A stretch of DNA of 28,121 bases. Source: a virus. Position 1 is the stretch's first letter; every line of letters begins with the position of its first letter. Below the pieces are notes generated by a model, which searched no databases, had not been told where the DNA came from, and worked only from the letters and a program-made list of their open reading frames with translations. The stretch covers positions 1 to 28,121 of IMG/VR virus record IMGVR_UViG_3300037517_000770; one strand, given 5' to 3'. Shown here one piece after another: positions 18,416 through 28,121 of this stretch. The position numbers and the translations under genes are program-made.

Positions 18416-20050
18416 CTAAGCCCTGAGTGCTGTATCAAGTGACGCCAACTGACTACGGCTGAGTTCCGCCGATTGAACACAAAGCGAAACAGCGGAATCG
18501 TATCCAGCCCCGGCAGTAACGTGAGAGCTGGTCAAGTCGTTGTCGCTGTTGGATGCGTCTCCCCAGACGCCAGAACCCGAACCGCTTAGAACCGACTGCT
18601 GCCAGAGGTTGCGAAGCTGCGTCATCGTGGTTGCGGTCAGACCTGCTGCGGTTAGTCTTGCCAGCCCAGCAGCTCCGCTCAGCGTCACGTAATAATTGGC
18701 GTCGATGTCAGCGACAAGCGTGCCCAAGTTTGTCGGGTACGCTCCGTTGAATGCGTAGTCGCTGTAGCAATCATCATCAAATGAAATTAGCACGTTATCG
18801 CGAACCGTGTAGTTGTTGCCGCCACCGCTGGCTGTCGAGCCGCCCTGAGTCCCGCCAAGCAGAATGCAGCGGTCAGCGACGATAGTATTGCCTTCGATGT
18901 TTGGATTCGGCCCAAACGCCAGCACGCTCGCTTGACACAGATTGTTTTCAAACTGTATCCCGTCGCCCCACAGATAAACTTGGTGGACGTTGGTAGTGTC
19001 GCCGAGCTGAGCGACGCGGAAGTAGTTGTCAGTGACAACCGCTCCGTCGGTGTTGGCAAACAACGAAAACACGCCAGCACTCAAAACCGGCTGCGTCATG
19101 TCGTTGTCTGTGATTGCGATTGAAGTAAAGTTGATTCCCTTGGCGTTGTTGACTGCCCGTGTCGAGGCTTCCGTGATTTCCTGCCCGACGCCAATCCAGC
19201 CGGACGTTGTATTTCCGGACATGACCAGGCTGGCAGTGGTCGATGTACCCGGCGACGGAGAGTAGATAAACATCGCGTACCCACTGCTGTTAGTGTAGGT
19301 AATCGTGTTGTTACGAATCTCTATAGGTGAGGTTGAGTTGCTGGCGATGATCCGCAGTTGATTAACGACGGTATTGTTATCAATCGTAATCTGTGAGTTT
19401 TGCAGTTTGACGCTTGCCCCAGACAATACGGTCGTGCCGCCAATTGCGGCCGTGGAGCTGATAACTGCTCCGTCGATGTCGATATTCGTGATTGAACCGA
19501 CCACCAGATTCGCCCACAGATTCCATCCCGTTATCGTGCAGCCTGACTGAATACGAAGCGTGCCAGAAGCCGGAGCGTTGATTCGGATTCCCTCTTCGTT
19601 GAACACCCGTGCGTGGGTGAACGTGCAATTCCCGGCCAGCGTGATGTTATAACTGCCGGTCGAAGTAAACAGAAAAACGACACGGTTACAGGTTACGTCA
19701 CAATTCTCCACCCGCAGCGTTGCTTTGGCATTGTCCAGCCCAGTAATAAAACGGTCACAGGCATCGTTGACTACGAACGGGCTTGAAGTTGCCGAGCGAA
19801 CGAGAATTGACCCGCCATTGTGCTGCGGCACTAGCCGAATATGGTCAGTCGATTGCAGTGCCCCAGACGGCACAACGTTGACGACCAGATTGGTGTTTGC
19901 CGTCCATTTATTAACCAGTGATTGATAGGTAGCGTGATAGATGGTCGCAAACGGTGCCGACTGCGATCCGTTGTTGGAATTGCTTCCACTCACCGGGTCC
20001 ACCCAAAACTGAATCACGCTTTGACCACCAAGCAACATCAATAAACCCAT
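18416..20050 (-). CDS. right-handed beta-helix tail protein (adhesin or tailspike)
   Basis: A 544-residue protein starting MGLLMLLGG, followed by the beta-helix entry motif FWVDPVSGSNSNNGSQSAPF (family pattern: V-x-P-x-x-G-s-d-x-n-x-G-t-x-x-x-P-f). Then come many short strands with Asn/Ile/Thr ladders (INAPASGTLRIQSGCTITGW; NNTVVNQLRI; MSGNTTSGW). Such folds bind or cleave host surface polysaccharide. Catalytic residues cannot be assigned. Start set at ATG 20050, overlapping the stop of the upstream lectin-like gene (TAATG) with GGGGG upstream; the 5-codon extension at 20065 is unlikely. Confidence 0.75.
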   Translation of the reverse strand: MGLLMLLGGQSVIQFWVDPVSGSNSNNGSQSAPFATIYHATYQSLVNKWTANTNLVVNVVPSGALQSTDHIRLVPQHNGGSILVRSATSSPFVVNDACDRFITGLDNAKATLRVENCDVTCNRVVFLFTSTGSYNITLAGNCTFTHARVFNEEGIRINAPASGTLRIQSGCTITGWNLWANLVVGSITNIDIDGAVISSTAAIGGTTVLSGASVKLQNSQITIDNNTVVNQLRIIASNSTSPIEIRNNTITYTNSSGYAMFIYSPSPGTSTTASLVMSGNTTSGWIGVGQEITEASTRAVNNAKGINFTSIAITDNDMTQPVLSAGVFSLFANTDGAVVTDNYFRVAQLGDTTNVHQVYLWGDGIQFENNLCQASVLAFGPNPNIEGNTIVADRCILLGGTQGGSTASGGGNNYTVRDNVLISFDDDCYSDYAFNGAYPTNLGTLVADIDANYYVTLSGAAGLARLTAAGLTATTMTQLRNLWQQSVLSGSGSGVWGDASNSDNDLTSSHVTAGAGYDSAVSLCVQSAELSRSQLASLDTALRA

Positions 20051-20880
20051 TAGGCAATCCCCCAATAGGTCTTCTGGTTGGCGTCAATGGCGGCCCGGTT
20101 GGCAGACTGGTCAGACTTCCACAGAATGAACTCCGAGTAATAGCAGGCTGGCGAGAATGTCGTTCCTAAGTTGTTTGCTAAAAATCGTCGGTTTGTCGTT
20201 GTCCAATCTGCTACGTTGGCAAACGTGCCAACAACTCCCGCCTGAATCAAAGCACCGGTATGCAGTGCCGTGTACAGGTCGCCTCGTGTCGAGTAAGAAA
20301 CGGCCGATTCATTTTTGCGAACACTGGAAAGAGTGAAAGACGTTGCTAATGTGGTGCTTGAGCTAGATTGCTGCGAATAAACCGCCGCAGCCGTCGCACT
20401 TACGCTGCCAATAATTGCAGATGACGTTTCTGATGTCGGGATGCCAAACACCCCAAACCAATCGCACGGCGAGTTTTGCGTCACAATCGGATAGGCCAGC
20501 CCGATGTTGCTGTTGGCGGTTTGGTTACGAATCGTAACCTTGCCGCTGTATGTTTCGAGTGCCCCGCTGGCGACAATTCGTGGCTGTAATGCGTCGGTCG
20601 ATTGTGTCGCGTTGGCACTTCCAACTTGGTCATACCACGTTTTAACAAACCCATCGCCAGCAGCGCAAAACGACAACAGCGACGCTGTGTCGATTAAACC
20701 GCCAGAAAAGCCGATGTCCTGCTCTGTGCTGTCGCTGGAACGCCGCACACGCAAGCAGCTGCCAGCGTAAGCAGTTCGCAATTTCCGCAGACTATAGGCA
20801 CCTGCCGAACCAGTGTAGGTATCCAGCAGTGGCGGAGTTGTCGGCGTTGATGCGCTTCCCAGCAGGAGCAACAGTCCCAT
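20050..20880 (-). CDS. arabinofuranosidase-B-like / lectin-like tail protein
   Basis: A 276-residue protein starting MGLLLLLGSAS, then residues 28-95 with AYSLRKLRTAYAG, VRRSSD (45-50), DIGF (55-58) and GFVKTWYDQVG (78-87). This order matches the start of the alpha-L-arabinofuranosidase B catalytic fold, a concanavalin-A-like beta sandwich. The rest (CDWFGVFGIPTSETSS ... YYSEFILWKSDQSANRAAID) is typical of laminin-G-like phage lectins. Catalytic acids cannot be confirmed, so binding rather than hydrolysis is quite possible. Function would be attachment to host glycans. Confidence 0.75.
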   Translation of the reverse strand: MGLLLLLGSASTPTTPPLLDTYTGSAGAYSLRKLRTAYAGSCLRVRRSSDSTEQDIGFSGGLIDTASLLSFCAAGDGFVKTWYDQVGSANATQSTDALQPRIVASGALETYSGKVTIRNQTANSNIGLAYPIVTQNSPCDWFGVFGIPTSETSSAIIGSVSATAAAVYSQQSSSSTTLATSFTLSSVRKNESAVSYSTRGDLYTALHTGALIQAGVVGTFANVADWTTTNRRFLANNLGTTFSPACYYSEFILWKSDQSANRAAIDANQKTYWGIA

Positions 20881-21473: not shown

Positions 21474-22265
21474 CTATGAGATGGCATCCGGCGTTGGATA
21501 CTGCATCCCCGCCGGTGCGTAACCGATAAAGACCGTCCATCTGCCTGCTAGTGCCGTCTCGATGCTTTTCAGTGTCCATTCGTGGCAGCCGTCGCCGCTC
21601 CAGTTTGCCGACCACGAGTTGATGTTGACCACGTTTTGCGATGGTCGCCGCTGCCAGAACACGGTGCTGTGTCCGCCGCCGCTGCGGTTGCTGTAGTTGT
21701 CAACGATCTCTTCGTTGCAGCTGTCGTTCCATGTCAGGCCGGTTTGGATTGGAAGGCCCTGTTCAAGCCAGTCCAGCATTGACTGCAGGTCTTTGAATGG
21801 TTTCGTCGTCTGGAGCTTGAACAGGAATTTGTTGGCAGCCGATGCGGGCTGGGCCGGGTTGTAGCGTGACGGATACGGCCAGTCGGATTCGAGGCACATC
21901 CCGCTTTGCGTCGCGACCCACTGGCCAGCGGAAAGCGTGCTGCCCTGATCGCCGCGGATGCCGTCCTTCTTCTGGCTAAGGTAGTAACCCGCAGCTCGGC
22001 TGAACGCTGCTTTGCGGCCGGTGGCAAGGAAGTAGCAAATCTGAAACACGGTCGCCAGTGCGTGGCCCTGACAAGCGCCCTGCTGCCCTTGGTCCGTAAT
22101 CGACACGATGCCCAGCGGGTCGGCCTGCGTGTTAAACGTCGGGAACGTGTCCCGGTACCACTTCAGCAGCTCGCCCGGTTCCGTTCCGGTTGCTTCCAGT
22201 TGGCCGACGTTCTCGCTGCCGAGTGCCCAGCCCAGTTTGCCTTGCTCTAGCTTGCGTCCGCTCAT
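21474..22265 (-). CDS. papain-like (C1) cysteine protease
   Basis: A 263-residue enzyme. The papain spacing is exact: Gln59 then Cys65 (DQGQQGACQGHA), His199 in GGGHSTVFW, Asn216 in NINSWSANW, and the Trp that packs on it. No signal peptide at its N-terminus. It is encoded between a secreted poly-proline protein and a small membrane protein. C1 peptidases in such phage positions could be endolysins acting on peptide crosslinks or proteases acting on the protein-rich planctomycete envelope; neither is proven. The ATG overlaps the upstream stop by four bases. Confidence 0.8.
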   Translation of the reverse strand: MSGRKLEQGKLGWALGSENVGQLEATGTEPGELLKWYRDTFPTFNTQADPLGIVSITDQGQQGACQGHALATVFQICYFLATGRKAAFSRAAGYYLSQKKDGIRGDQGSTLSAGQWVATQSGMCLESDWPYPSRYNPAQPASAANKFLFKLQTTKPFKDLQSMLDWLEQGLPIQTGLTWNDSCNEEIVDNYSNRSGGGHSTVFWQRRPSQNVVNINSWSANWSGDGCHEWTLKSIETALAGRWTVFIGYAPAGMQYPTPDAIS

Positions 22266-23833: not shown

Positions 23834-24502
23834 CTACCGGTTGAGAAGTTGCCGGACTCTACCGGCAAGTCCTGCACGAATCGGGGCTGTGACGCTGTGA
23901 ACGGTGCCTGCCACGGTTTTCACCTTCTTCTTGGCCCAGACGCTGCCGCCACTGACCACGCCACAAACTTTGCCAGCGGCGTTGACCACTGGACCACCCG
24001 AATCGCCAGGAATCGCATAGCTAAACAGCACCATCGACTTTTCGCCGACCGCTGCCACCTTGGACTTAAAGCACCGCAGGCCTTGACCGCCGCCAAACCC
24101 GCAGACACGCACATCGTCGCCTTCCGCAGCATCGACGACTTCGAGGACACTACAGCCGCCCGGCATGTTGCAGTTCAGCACAGCCACGTCGGCCTCACGG
24201 TCACTGCCACGCAGGGTGGCCTTGTTGGTGCTGCCGTCGTGAAAGCTGACCGTAAACGACTGATTGCCGTCGGCGATGTGTGCGGCCGTCAGAACGGCAG
24301 GAGACTCGCCAGCGTCGACGATGCACCCGGTGCCGGTGCCGCCGTTGGTATCGCCGCGGACAACGACTAGTGCCGTCACCAGCTGCGGCTCACAGTCAAC
24401 GAACTCCCACAGACCAGAATCCTTTCCGACTTGGCCAGCAGCGTGCTGGACCAGCAAGAGAGATACAACCAGAACTGATAAAGACAGCTTGGCGAGATTC
24501 AC
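23834..24502 (-). CDS. secreted trypsin-like serine protease
   Basis: A 222-residue enzyme with a signal peptide (LSLSVLVVSLLLVQHAAGQ, residues 6-24). Catalytic triad: His75 in TAAH, Asp105 in READVAVL and Ser168 in GDSGGPV, so an active S1/HtrA-like protease domain without a PDZ domain. Two Cys pairs suggest disulphides. GTG start at 24502 with AGGTG upstream. A secreted protease in a phage lysis/early region is unusual; it could process envelope proteins or own adhesins. Confidence 0.8.
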   Translation of the reverse strand: MNLAKLSLSVLVVSLLLVQHAAGQVGKDSGLWEFVDCEPQLVTALVVVRGDTNGGTGTGCIVDAGESPAVLTAAHIADGNQSFTVSFHDGSTNKATLRGSDREADVAVLNCNMPGGCSVLEVVDAAEGDDVRVCGFGGGQGLRCFKSKVAAVGEKSMVLFSYAIPGDSGGPVVNAAGKVCGVVSGGSVWAKKKVKTVAGTVHSVTAPIRAGLAGRVRQLLNR

Positions 24503-24774: not shown

Positions 24775-24967
24775 GTCTCGCCCTCCAGCACTGTTTCGGC
24801 ATCCGCTCAATGCCGTAGGTCCGTTTAATGTCCCAGTACGCCAGCCGCTCCGATTCCCACCGCCGCCACCACGCTGGCTTGTACCGCCAGAAGACATCGC
24901 TGCTGCATCCTTCCTCGATGATGGCCGCCCGCTCGTCCCACAGTTCGATGATGTCAGCCTCGCTCAT
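24758..24967 (-). CDS. small hypothetical protein of the replication module
   Basis: A 69-residue protein starting MSEADIIELWDERAAIIEEG, acidic first half and Trp/Arg-rich second half (WWRRWESERLAYWDIKRTYG). No known motif. Start at ATG 24967 with AGGTG seven bases upstream; overlaps the preceding stop by 14 bases. Trp/Arg-rich helices of this sort often occur in small phage regulators, but nothing specific is claimed. Confidence 0.65.
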   Translation of the reverse strand: MSEADIIELWDERAAIIEEGCSSDVFWRYKPAWWRRWESERLAYWDIKRTYGIERMPKQCWRARRDAAG

Positions 24968-25325
24968 ACTCAATCACCTGCTGCTCGAGCTGCGACACGA
25001 ACTCAGCCACCTCGCCAGCCGTCACGCCAGGGTTGGCCAGCCGGTAGACCCTCACCGCTTCCGCAATCCGCTGGCCGTGTGCGACCTTTGGATTGTGGCT
25101 TCGCCGGTTCCAGCTGCGATACTCAATCACCGCACGCCGTACCACGCTGGCAGGCGGCATGCAGTCACGGGTTCGGCCGACCTTCAGGATGGCGGCCGAC
25201 AACTCGTCACGGTCGAACTCGCCCAGCACCAGATGCCAGGCGTTGACATCGACCTCGGTCAGCTCGCGGCCGAACAGGCTGAACAGTGCCGCCAGCATCA
25301 GGCCCAGTTCACTTCGATTGACCAT
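24954..25325 (-). CDS. helicase-loader-type replication protein (G39P-like), tentative
   Basis: A 123-residue helical protein. An N-terminal helix (ELGLMLAALFSLFGRELTEV) is followed by VDVNAWHLVLGEFDRDELSAAI, KVGRTRDCMPPASVVRRAVI. This pattern (short acidic segment, A-I-x-x-x, then a proline-containing P-x-x-x-x-x-R) resembles phage loader/inhibitor proteins of the G39P type, which partner an initiator and a hexameric helicase. It lies directly downstream of the initiator-like gene with GGAGG before its ATG. Family call is moderate to weak. Confidence 0.5.
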   Translation of the reverse strand: MVNRSELGLMLAALFSLFGRELTEVDVNAWHLVLGEFDRDELSAAILKVGRTRDCMPPASVVRRAVIEYRSWNRRSHNPKVAHGQRIAEAVRVYRLANPGVTAGEVAEFVSQLEQQVIEYERG

Positions 25326-26352
25326 TGGAACCTCCTAGGAATCCTGCCACGCCTGCCTCCTCCTGAGCCTTAATCCGCTGCAGCATCTCGGCCATGTTCT
25401 GCTGCCGCTGCTGGCCGAAGGTGACCGGCTTGGCGCTGGCCTTGCCGCTATTGCCTCGCAGGTCGTTGCGTTCCCATTGGCGAACAGCCGCCTTCCAGTC
25501 CTTCATGGGGTTCTTGCCGACCTTCCAGCCGTTGGCTGTGTAGTGGTCCATCCACTCGTGCGGGTCGACGGTGTTGCCACGTTCCTTGCAGTACGCCACC
25601 ACATCCTCGATTGTCGGTCGCACCATTGAGATACCACTCTTAGTGGTATCTCTTTCTTCTCTTCTCTCCTGTACTGTGGTCACGCTTTTGTCACAAACTT
25701 TTGTGACATTTTTGTGACGCAATTCATCAGGTGTTTTGTTGCTCAATTTTTGATTGCAAACAGTGCAGCAAGTCACCAAATTTTCAGCGTTTGTGGCACC
25801 ACCACGGCTTTCTGGCTGGACGTGATGCACCGACAATTTAGCGCCAATGTACGGACCGACCACCGCTTTTTTGCTAGGGTTCCACTGGCAATAAACGCAC
25901 GTAAACCCGTCACGCTCGTAGACCTCTCGCCGCACCGCAGCCGGAACGTGATCTTTTTGTTTGTTTGCTGTCACAACTTTTTGTGACATTTGTGTGACAC
26001 GTTCTTTTTGCTTCCTTCGAGAGGCTGAAATCCGCTTTTTTGCGGACTCGCCCAGCCATCGGTCCCAGTTCGGAAAGCTGATGTAAGGCTTGCCGTCGGT
26101 GTCCACGCCATGCTCCAGCCATCCAGCGTCGGCCATCAGCTGCGGAAAGTCCGGCAGGGATGTCACCCTGCCCAGCGATGTTAGCGTGACGTGCTTGACG
26201 CAGCCGTCTTGCGACTGGCGTGACGCCCACGCCCAGATTCGATGCAGGTAGCCGACAATGACTTCCTCTCGCTGGCCAATACGCTCGGCCATGTAGGTCA
26301 CCGCCGGGTCTTCGTACAGGTCCAGCCGCATTGGTATCCAATCACCAGCCAT
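25309..26352 (-). CDS. replication initiator with an internal HNH domain
   Basis: A 347-residue protein; coordinates below count from the second Met. Residues 1-115 look like a phage replisome-organiser winged-helix domain (DWIPMRLDLYEDPAVTYMAE ... WAWASRQSQDGCVKH ... ISFPNWDRWLGESAKKR). Residues 135-212 are a complete HNH nuclease: VYERDGFTCVYC, LSVHHVQPESRGG, NAENLVTCCTVCNQKL. Residues 245-295 (RPTIEDVVAYCKERGNTVDP ... GWKVGKNPMKDWKAAVRQWE) match the C-terminal partner-binding domain of replication proteins. GGGAGG lies six bases before ATG 26352. It is followed by a helicase-loader-type gene. The DNA also contains origin-like repeats. Confidence 0.8.
   Translation of the reverse strand: MAGDWIPMRLDLYEDPAVTYMAERIGQREEVIVGYLHRIWAWASRQSQDGCVKHVTLTSLGRVTSLPDFPQLMADAGWLEHGVDTDGKPYISFPNWDRWLGESAKKRISASRRKQKERVTQMSQKVVTANKQKDHVPAAVRREVYERDGFTCVYCQWNPSKKAVVGPYIGAKLSVHHVQPESRGGATNAENLVTCCTVCNQKLSNKTPDELRHKNVTKVCDKSVTTVQERREERDTTKSGISMVRPTIEDVVAYCKERGNTVDPHEWMDHYTANGWKVGKNPMKDWKAAVRQWERNDLRGNSGKASAKPVTFGQQRQQNMAEMLQRIKAQEEAGVAGFLGGSNGQSK
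25628..25720. other. candidate replication origin inside the initiator gene
   Basis: In coding-strand order: three GTCACAA-type units (25720-25690; two direct at 11-bp spacing, then one inverted), then a purine tract AGGAGAGAAGAGAAGAAAGA (25671-25652), then a perfect 11-bp inverted repeat with 3-base loop (25628-25638 / 25642-25652, GAGATACCACT arms). The layout iterons, purine-rich tract, palindrome is that of the lambda origin within gene O. Confidence 0.6.
25690..26000. repeat. two 31-bp iteron clusters flanking the HNH-coding DNA
   Basis: 25690-25720 and 25970-26000 match at 27 of 31 bases. Each has GTCACAA in one orientation and two copies of its reverse (TTGTGAC-type) at 11-bp spacing. 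The two copies are in different reading frames of the same gene, so the similarity is kept at DNA level, not protein level. They lie either side of the HNH-coding segment, 280 bp apart. Confidence 0.8.
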
Positions 26353-27482
26353 CATTCACCTCCCGTCAGCCTGTCCATTGCCATCCTTGCCACCACTTCA
26401 GCCACCTGCGGAACTATGGCGTTGCCGAGGCATCGCAACTTGTTGACTCGGTTTGGGATTCTGGTTGCGACTCGCCCGGCAAATCGCACTAGTCCACCGG
26501 AAACCCCATTAACCAGCTCACCCATTGCGGGTTCAGCTGCCCACCAGCCACCGCTGCCAGTGTCGGCGTGTTCCGTTCGTGTTCCGCCGGGTAGCCGCCC
26601 TCCTTGGCGTTGTGTGCCGTTGGTGTCGGCAGGAACTTGACCGCTGCTTCCAGCGAAATCTGCTTGCCAATTGCCATCCGCCTGGCTGTACTGTTCTGCG
26701 TTGCCCATGGTCGATTGTCTGAGGCGTTTGGTGTCGGCCACCACTTCACCGCATCGTTCAGCGTTATCGACTGCTTGGTCCCGCTCGGCCTCTTGCCTGT
26801 TGGCCTGTTCTTCGATACTCGGCCGCCGGTGCCCATGCTTGCGTCGGGTGTAGGCCACATCGCCATTTCCACGGGTGTCGGTGTTCGTCCTTGCCTGGAC
26901 TTCTCGCTGCGTCCCGTTCCTTTTGCCATCGCTGCCGTTGGTGTTCCGACAGTTATCTGGCAGCTCGGCCATTTCTGCATACTGGGACAGAGCTGATTCG
27001 CCGTTGCTGTAGGCGAGAATAAAAACCCTGTCCCGGATATGCGGGGCACCAACGGCGGCAGCCGGTATGCAATGCCACTCCGCATCAAACCCGACCTCGG
27101 CCAGCGTCCCGAGAACTCGGTCCAGCCCTCTAGTAAGCAACGCTGCCACGTTCTCCAAGACAACTGCTCTCGGTTGCAATTCTCGAACCAAGCGAATGGC
27201 TTCAAAGAACAACCCGCTTCTGGCTCCATCAAGGCCTGCTCCTTTCCCGGCGTAGGAAATATCCACACAGGGAAATCCGCCGATGATGCAATCGACGCGC
27301 TCGAGGTTGTGTTGTCCGCACTGCCGGATGTCTCGCTCCCGATGCACGTCTGGCCAGTGCCGCTTAAGGATTTTCGTCGCATAGTCATCAATCTCCACCT
27401 GCCACTTGCACTGAAACCCAGCCCGTTCAAAACCTAAGTCAAACCCGCCAATGCCTGCGAACAAGCTCCCAAACGTCAGCAT
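26352..27482 (-). CDS. C5 cytosine DNA methyltransferase
   Basis: A 376-residue enzyme. Motif I SLFAGIGGFDLGFERAGF, motif II VEIDDYA, motif IV GGFPCVDIS with catalytic Cys72, motif VI LENV (E110, N111), motif VIII IRDRVFILA and C-terminal motif X RCLGNAIVPQVAE are all present and in order. The region between motif VIII and X (about 160-300) is hydrophilic and Asn/Thr/Arg-rich. Start set at ATG 27482, five bases after GGAGG; earlier starts lack a proper SD. It likely protects phage DNA from host restriction. The same DNA has a long second frame described in the findings. Confidence 0.88.
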   Translation of the reverse strand: MLTFGSLFAGIGGFDLGFERAGFQCKWQVEIDDYATKILKRHWPDVHRERDIRQCGQHNLERVDCIIGGFPCVDISYAGKGAGLDGARSGLFFEAIRLVRELQPRAVVLENVAALLTRGLDRVLGTLAEVGFDAEWHCIPAAAVGAPHIRDRVFILAYSNGESALSQYAEMAELPDNCRNTNGSDGKRNGTQREVQARTNTDTRGNGDVAYTRRKHGHRRPSIEEQANRQEAERDQAVDNAERCGEVVADTKRLRQSTMGNAEQYSQADGNWQADFAGSSGQVPADTNGTQRQGGRLPGGTRTEHADTGSGGWWAAEPAMGELVNGVSGGLVRFAGRVATRIPNRVNKLRCLGNAIVPQVAEVVARMAMDRLTGGE

Positions 27483-27925
27483 CCCTGCCTCCATCCCTGC
27501 GTTCGTGCCCATTCCGCAATCAGCAGGCTGTCCGCATTGGCGTGCGTGATTTTCATAAACGGCCAGCGACGCTGGGCCTCAGCCTTGCTGACGTTCTTGT
27601 CGCCTTTGGTGAGGCAACCCATCTGCTGCTGCCACTTCTGCGGACGGACTAGCAGGTACGGCACCTGGTTGGCATCCAGCAAGCCAAGCACATGGCCGAA
27701 GCTCTGGCCGAAGGTGAACGCCGATTTAACGCCCATCTGCGGCGAGCTGTGAACCTGCTCAAGTGCGGCCTTGGCCCGGTGCAAATCGAACTGGTGGAAC
27801 CAGTCGGCGATGTCCTTGCCGGTGCCGTCCAGCTTGCAGGGGCTGCCGTCCCAAGGCGTCCCGTCGTCCCAGATCGCCGACACGCTGCCGCTCTTGCCGG
27901 GGTCAATTCCGAAGTAAATCGCCAT
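27476..27925 (-). CDS. RuvC-like Holliday-junction resolvase
   Basis: A 149-residue RNase-H-fold nuclease. Catalytic acids: Asp8 in FGIDPGKSG, Glu56 in AALEQVHSSPQMGV, and Asp132 in THANADSLLIAEW. The segment FTFGQSFGHVLGLL is the family's DNA-contact loop. SD CGGAGG precedes ATG 27925. It overlaps the methyltransferase gene by seven bases. It would resolve branched replication intermediates before packaging. Confidence 0.85.
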   Translation of the reverse strand: MAIYFGIDPGKSGSVSAIWDDGTPWDGSPCKLDGTGKDIADWFHQFDLHRAKAALEQVHSSPQMGVKSAFTFGQSFGHVLGLLDANQVPYLLVRPQKWQQQMGCLTKGDKNVSKAEAQRRWPFMKITHANADSLLIAEWARTQGWRQGC

Positions 27926-27975
27926 GTGTTCCTCCGTGTTTCACTGTGCTGTGAAAAGCCGTCTTTGAATGAAAA

Positions 27976-28044
27976 TAGTCCCGGCTGGACTCAAACCAGC
28001 ACCTTTCCCCTTGTCGGGTTGCGTCTACATTCCGCCACGGGACC
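27976..28044 (-). tRNA. tRNA-like element with reduced anticodon arm
   Basis: The acceptor stem GGTCCCG / CGGGACT (one G-U) and T arm GCTGG-TTTGAGT-CCAGC are perfect, and the D arm is of Leu type (GCGGAATGTAGACGC). The anticodon region is three bases too short, has only CCC/GGG pairing around GACAAG, and lacks U33, so no anticodon can be assigned. No CCA is encoded. It is a degenerate tRNA or a tRNA-like RNA; same strand as the genes. Confidence 0.6.
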
Positions 28045-28092
28045 GTCGCACATTCACCGAGTGCGACTTCAAGGCCTGTTCCTATTCAGGCC
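28045..28092 (-). other. two perfect hairpins upstream of the tRNA-like element
   Basis: GTCGCAC/GTGCGAC (28045-28051 with 28061-28067, 9-nt loop) abuts the tRNA-like 5' end. GGCCTG/CAGGCC (28073-28078 with 28087-28092, 8-nt loop) lies just beyond. They may guide processing of a tRNA-cluster transcript, or belong to another degenerate tRNA. Confidence 0.4.
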
Positions 28093-28121
28093 CTGCGGTT
28101 TCTCCAACGTATTCGCCGTCG

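Follow-up and report, generated by a model that had tools for sequence, protein, structure and literature searches.

The replication initiator of the virus contig studied here (the window, 28,121 nt or 28.1 kb) contains a complete HNH nuclease domain, inserted in frame into the linker between its two initiator domains. The DNA that encodes this linker carries phased repeats and is a putative replication origin. Because related phages exist with and without the HNH, its probable role is that of a weapon against rival origins, mobile or competitive, and not that of a normal part of replication. HNH insertions recur within the repeat array of other initiators and keep an intact motif. We give about even chances to a homing or interference nuclease that needs no splicing and that relies on the origin-binding domain of the initiator to cut the origins of rivals without the HNH.

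As a rule, a homing endonuclease has to reside in an intron, an intein or an intergenic gap if it is to spare the gene that it targets. Here the target is a linker that apparently encodes origin DNA and that tolerates an extra domain, and targeting may come from the host protein. If this is true, then a single gene is a weapon of one origin against another. It would help to explain the frequent shuffling of initiator N-domains, C-domains and iterons, and 'origin-directed nucleases' would extend well beyond phage ICP1. Homing endonucleases and origin-directed nucleases are already known; the interest of this case rests on the place of the nuclease inside an origin-bearing initiator and on its recurrence.

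The initiator gene and its domains

The gene is a single unbroken open reading frame of 348 aa (25309-26355, minus strand). Residues 2-135 match phrog_2509 (replication initiation, E 2e-31), which makes it a phrog_2509-type phage initiator. The C-terminal region matches the unnamed profiles phrog_15768 and phrog_28809, and a C-domain of this type is also present in the HNH-less initiators L005, L039 and L162 (L-numbers denote related sequences from our scans). An earlier note on this DNA had described a complete HNH amid an initiator, with replication-type domains on either side, and the profile matches and the uninterrupted frame confirm this. The features of the gene, with their basis, are:

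25309-26355, minus strand: replication initiator gene with internal HNH, 348 aa (open reading frame; phrog_2509 E 2e-31, Pfam HNH E 4e-10)
26050-26355, minus strand: N-terminal winged-helix domain, residues 1-102, presumed origin-binding (AlphaFold2 pLDDT mostly >90; VIA-align)
25969-25999, minus strand: left iterons TGTCACACAAATGTCACAAAAAGTTGTGACA, GTCAC-11-GTCAC-13-GTGAC (sequence)
25711-25968, minus strand: in-frame HNH insert of 258 bp, residues 130-215 (86 aa), absent in L003 and L005 (alignments)
25735-25899, minus strand: HNH core, Pfam PF01844, residues 153-207 (Pfam; model)
25679-25719, minus strand: right iterons GTCAC-11-GTCAC-13-GTGAC-11-GTGAC, with the spacing of the single L036 array (sequence)
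25649-25670, minus strand: purine tract AGGAGAGAAGAGAAGAAAGAGA adjoining the right iterons, the side on which the origin presumably unwinds (sequence)
25450-25608, minus strand: C-terminal helical domain, residues 250-302, common to HNH-less L005 (profiles, alignment, model)

Structure prediction, which the earlier note had proposed as a check, returned all three domains. The alignment of the first AlphaFold2 run was too poor in HNH rows and the HNH was left unmodelled; a second run modelled it. The result is a confident winged helix, a beta-beta-alpha HNH core (E174-177, E194-197, H198-205) and a helical C-domain, joined by linkers of low confidence at residues 128-134 and 213-240. When residues 1-96 of the model were compared using VIA-align, 4pql, 4pt7 and 5kbj, which we take to be RepA_N plasmid initiator structures, were found among other winged helices at Z 5.2-5.7, where values below 8 are suggestive only. 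A PDB sequence search using the initiator profile found no match and Foldseek against the PDB gave nothing below E 0.001. Likewise, a phrog_2509 search of 398 Pseudomonadota genomes found no N-domain match in an open frame of more than 300 aa.

The HNH insert

The HNH is recognised by Pfam as PF01844 (E 4e-10, residues 153-207) and HNH_5 (E 4e-9), and residues 136-217 of the model matched the HNH enzymes Cap5, ZRANB3 and McrA in VIA-align. Its CVYC, HH and CTVC motifs and the following N are all intact. The earlier note had named non-conserved catalytic residues as evidence that would count against its proposal; in the HNH-bearing relatives, conservation covers the cysteines, the catalytic His and the Asn of CxxCN, and no broken HNH motif was found in any HNH-bearing allele. 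When aligned on L003, the insert lies between VVT and NVT with the frame kept, and it begins with Ala and ends with Lys. At 86 aa, it brings no specificity domain of its own.

Inside the insert, the window and its HNH-bearing relative L002 show only 7 differences in all, 5 synonymous and 2 non-synonymous (dN/dS about 0.11, P 0.007). The low dN/dS indicates that the HNH is not a chance motif and points to purifying selection on it. Synonymous divergence between the two is 9% in the insert and 8% in the flanks, so the module appears to have been inherited together with its flanks and kept under constraint. The GC3 of the insert is 0.51, against 0.67-0.69, and it is equally low in 5.7% of windows of the phage's own sequence; this composition suggests a foreign origin, but is not decisive. 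Searches for an HNH PHROG family in Gammaproteobacteria and for the HNH module in 185 genomes returned generic HNH proteins or nothing.

A putative origin in the linker DNA

Read as DNA, the linker region of the initiator gene is a phased array of GTCAC/GTGAC iterons followed by a purine tract. The earlier note had overlooked both this array and the place of the HNH within it. The pentamers occur at helical spacing in the HNH-less relatives L036 (4 pentamers, 11-13-11 bp), L005 (5 pentamers, 11-11-14-11) and L003 (6 pentamers, 11-13-9-13-11). In the window there are 3 to the left of the HNH (11-13) and 4 to the right (11-13-11, the L036 pattern), and the first half-site of the right group falls within the last codons of the insert. 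Random recoding that kept the protein and the codon usage matched the observed pentamer counts with P values of 0.005 for L003, 0.00025 for L005, 0.015 for L036, 0.018 for the right group of the window and 0.06 for its left group. A 31-bp motif derived from the two window copies, and thus chosen post hoc, was found in 0 of 100 shuffles.

It is the DNA and not the protein that is conserved here, since the two copies in the window are translated in different frames. The sole DNA match between L036 and the window is at 25649-25718, the iterons and purine tract, with 90% identity; the L036 N-domain is only 39% identical to that of the window at the protein level. Richness in short repeats is also greater in the linker than in the rest of the gene in 68 of 71 relatives from cellular prophages. 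The two 31-bp copies are 280 bp apart, which is not a multiple of 3. A simple recombination event between them would thus break the reading frame, which the 258-bp difference between alleles preserves.

Phased iterons and an asymmetric tract in the middle of an initiator gene are the layout of lambda O and ori-lambda (PMC7466680), and the window has this layout at the level of its sequence. The lambda iterons differ in sequence from those described here and lambda O contains no nuclease. By this likeness, the array is the putative replication origin of the phage and would be bound by the initiator. Other arrays of these sites were seen as well. There is a second GTCAC/GTGAC array in the N-domain codons of L005 (L005:5130-5195, codons 44-64), which is partly retained in the window, and the HNH-less initiator L178 has a greatly expanded array of 16 GTSAC sites in its linker region (L178:497-683).

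Alleles with and without the HNH

A scan of viral contigs identified four close relatives of the window initiator (L002, L003, L004 and L005). The earlier note had suggested a search for homologues with and without the HNH, and near-identical relatives of both kinds were found. The HNH is present in L002, with 96% identity to the window. L003 and L004 are without it; they are 98% identical over residues 1-129 and have a different C-domain. L005, also without it, has the C-domain of the window, and the two are 95% identical in DNA from the right iterons as far as the following gene. No such HNH was present elsewhere on the 36-38 kb contigs of L003 and L004 or the 25-kb contig of L005.

The HNH of the window is at a mosaic joint between an L003-like N-domain and an L005-like C-domain. 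The window and L002 share a tract of about 0.9 kb around the HNH and have differing flanks, as co-conversion might leave, but mosaicism is general. The point of insertion in L003 falls at the middle of a 42-bp inverted repeat, whose arms of 20 nt are 80% complementary and 2 nt apart. Otherwise similar alleles with and without the module and a clean in-frame insertion are features of homing elements. The L003-type allele is either an empty site or an excision product.

Recurrence in this and other initiator families

Wider scans found an HNH in the linker of L140, L141, L143 (with L144, L145 and L304), L147, L303 and L306. GTSAC arrays are present on both sides of the HNH in 7 of 8 distinct HNH-bearing phrog_2509-type genes, the window and L002 included; the exception is L140, which has no clear flanking GTSAC arrays. 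A second pair with and without the HNH is formed by L143 and L192, respectively, whose N-domains match at 75%. Positions 1-360 of L143 align with 1-360 of L192 and 658-728 with 347-419, an overlap of 14 nt over one half-site. Among 188 distinct MAGDWI proteins, the 7 HNH rows are 6 distinct genes, although the scans were similarity-ranked and biased, and these numbers do not give a frequency. An HNH was absent from all cellular prophage copies of the initiator that were read. A tree built from 97 N-domain rows requires 6 changes of the HNH label for 6 rows, at least 4 of which are forced by well-supported (starred) branches. As judged from this tree, the distribution is one of repeated gain or loss, sporadic at a fixed site. 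Such patchiness is also expected under ordinary mosaic recombination.

The arrangement is not restricted to phrog_2509-type initiators. A cultured Pseudomonas phage, vB_Pae_SG_WM_Sew_P27 (PP740689.1; grown on PA14), encodes an initiator of 360 aa with an HNH at 136-177. The 282-aa initiator of JBD44 is without the HNH; its last 146 aa are identical to those of P27 (436/441 nt) and the N-domains are 68% identical. This family is unrelated to the phrog_2509 type, and the HNH is at a recombination joint there too. The linkers of the P27/JBD44-type family repeat DSLIPDSLIP (GATTCTCTGATTCC; L034:1203-1240 and L379:2143-2180), perhaps a different type of iteron. A mid-protein HNH is also found in L369, which has a phrog_16167/2149-type initiator. 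Short two-domain proteins, consisting of an initiator N-domain and a C-terminal HNH, are represented by L328 and L345 (both DUF1376), L329 (Phage_rep_org_N) and L346. Louie, Krappator27 and JBD44 have free-standing HNH genes that precede an initiator or helicase-loader gene, and P27 has one besides its internal HNH (L032, L033, L034 and L379).

PHROG 5718 ('HNH endonuclease', 394 positions) is similar in that its N-terminal part matches an initiator domain and its middle matches HNH. It differs in that the domain is that of another initiator family, the phrog_16167/2149 type, as in L369. From these profile matches, the initiator-HNH architecture appears to be already among reference phages under another name. 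The open-licence literature yielded Odn and lambda O and no report of an HNH inside a phage initiator.

There may be a class of splicing-free homing elements inside phage origins, in which an HNH lies in frame within the iterons, uses the origin-binding domain of the initiator for targeting, is kept in frame and expressed with replication, and is aimed at HNH-less relatives. That this class exists, and arose in at least two unrelated initiator families, we propose tentatively, at somewhat less than even odds. The P27/JBD44 pair makes the homing or interference reading testable in culture.

A proposed homing or interference nuclease

How might such a nuclease act? The starting point would be a working initiator with an origin, comprised of the linker iterons and purine tract, inside its own coding sequence. 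An HNH would have entered the iteron array in frame, and because the extra domain could be tolerated in a disordered linker, no splicing would be needed. The winged helix would bind GTCAC/GTGAC iterons and bring the HNH to the origin of a co-infecting HNH-less relative, where it would nick or cut at or near the uninterrupted array. Either repair off the HNH-bearing genome would then copy the module in (homing) or the rival would lose its origin (interference). The insert interrupts the phage's own array, which may protect its own genome. Self-protection is the weakest point of this reading, because intact groups of half-sites persist on both sides of the insert and a cutter at any iteron would cut its own genome. 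Dependence on the spacing of the sites would solve this.

The earlier note had offered two roles for the HNH. Of these, the homing element that leaves the initiator functional agrees with the near-identical alleles, the in-frame insert, the lack of splicing machinery, the recurrence and the patchiness, while nicking of the phage's own origin is without support.

The closest known parallel to a targeted cut of this kind is Odn, the origin-directed nuclease of Vibrio phage ICP1. Odn has a RepA_N DNA-binding domain and cuts the iteron origins of a competitor, for which the iterons are required (PMC8263062); dependence on spacing has been reported from its escape mutants. It serves as a proof of principle that a nuclease attached to an initiator domain can cut such origins. 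In both, an initiator DNA-binding domain is joined to a nuclease of homing-endonuclease type and the target, proposed in the case of the window, is an iteron origin. The N-domain of the window also resembles plasmid initiator structures, weakly (Z 5.2-5.7). Unlike the window's HNH, the nuclease of Odn is of the T5orf172 type. Odn is without an initiator C-domain and separate from the phage's own replication system, whereas in the window the HNH forms part of the complete initiator of the phage itself and lies within that phage's putative origin.

Free-standing and intron-encoded HNH homing endonucleases of phages share with the window the HNH itself, alleles with and without it, a recurrent site, an essential target gene and recombination joints (PMC10448857). 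They differ in that the window module is an internal domain of its target protein, with no intron, intein, separate gene or specificity domain of its own. Nuclease genes occur at the boundaries of genetic exchange between phages (PMC10448857), which fits the mosaic joint of the window.

Alternative explanations

The HNH could instead be a domesticated origin-directed weapon without homing, which like Odn destroys the origins of satellites or rival phages, is kept for this benefit and is spread by ordinary recombination. It would share the domain logic of Odn (PMC8263062, PMC10448857), with the short proteins of initiator N-domain and HNH in other phages (L328, L345, L329 and L346) as possible counterparts, and would be consistent with purifying selection on the HNH. 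We consider it unlikely, if the best of the alternatives, because self-damage is an obvious risk for a nuclease inside the phage's own complete initiator and putative origin, and repeated insertion within an iteron array is better explained by homing.

A little less likely again is a tolerated passenger, in which the repeat-rich linker is a recombination hot spot where fragments of neighbouring free-standing HNH genes have been captured without function. Yet the HNH motif is intact in all alleles, with no broken one found, the comparison of the window with L002 points to purifying selection, and related HNH subtypes recur between arrays. These observations have to be set against repeat-rich linkers in 68/71 relatives, HNH genes directly upstream of the initiators in JBD44, Louie and Krappator27, and C-domains that are swapped freely, with the HNH at a mosaic joint.

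Could the HNH nick the phage's own origin, as the earlier note suggested, in place of theta initiation or in support of it? The coding sequence of the module lies at the putative origin, and the DNA-binding domain of the initiator would carry the HNH there. However, the closest relatives, with the same N-domain, iterons and (in L005) C-domain, are without the HNH, as are all the cellular prophage copies that were read. The distribution is sporadic, and Pfam finds no HUH/Rep nuclease domain or other rolling-circle domain in the window initiator. This role is improbable.

We regard it as very improbable that the HNH and the adjacent C5 cytosine methyltransferase (26352-27512) form a restriction-modification pair, with the HNH as the restriction enzyme, although the genes are adjacent and overlapping in the window and there is a weak PADLOC REase_II match. 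The two are not inherited together: L002 has the HNH without the methyltransferase (on a 15-kb fragment, so this is not absolute) and L036 has the methyltransferase without any such HNH.

Least probable of all is removal of the HNH part as an intein or intron, elements in which HNH domains are generally common, for which nothing in the window sequence speaks: Pfam finds no Hint domain, Rfam has no match to a group I or II intron or other intron RNA family up to E 10, the junction residues (Ala and Lys) are not of intein type, and 258 bp, wholly coding for 86 aa, could accommodate neither an intein nor a group I intron that contains an open reading frame. The earlier note had likewise seen no intein or intron boundaries.

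Neighbouring genes in the window

In the window and in L005, the initiator gene is followed by one for a 123-aa protein (24954-25325, minus strand); in L002 this gene is close downstream, and in L003 a diverged homologue follows. On the other side, the C5 cytosine methyltransferase gene (26352-27512, minus strand) has a 4-nt overlap with the initiator start. It is present in the window and L036 and absent from the contigs of L002, L003, L004 and L005. Blocks of about 70 bp at 27974-28121 match DNA that precedes the initiator in L002, L003 and L005 (83-97% identity) and may be promoter or operator sequence common to these phages. Farther away, a trypsin-like protease (23834-24502, minus strand) has a match to the protease portion of RT-Protease type XI proteins (PADLOC E 1e-10), and the genes at 20050-20880 and 21474-22265 (minus strand) have weak matches to an arabinofuranosidase catalytic domain and a papain-type peptidase.
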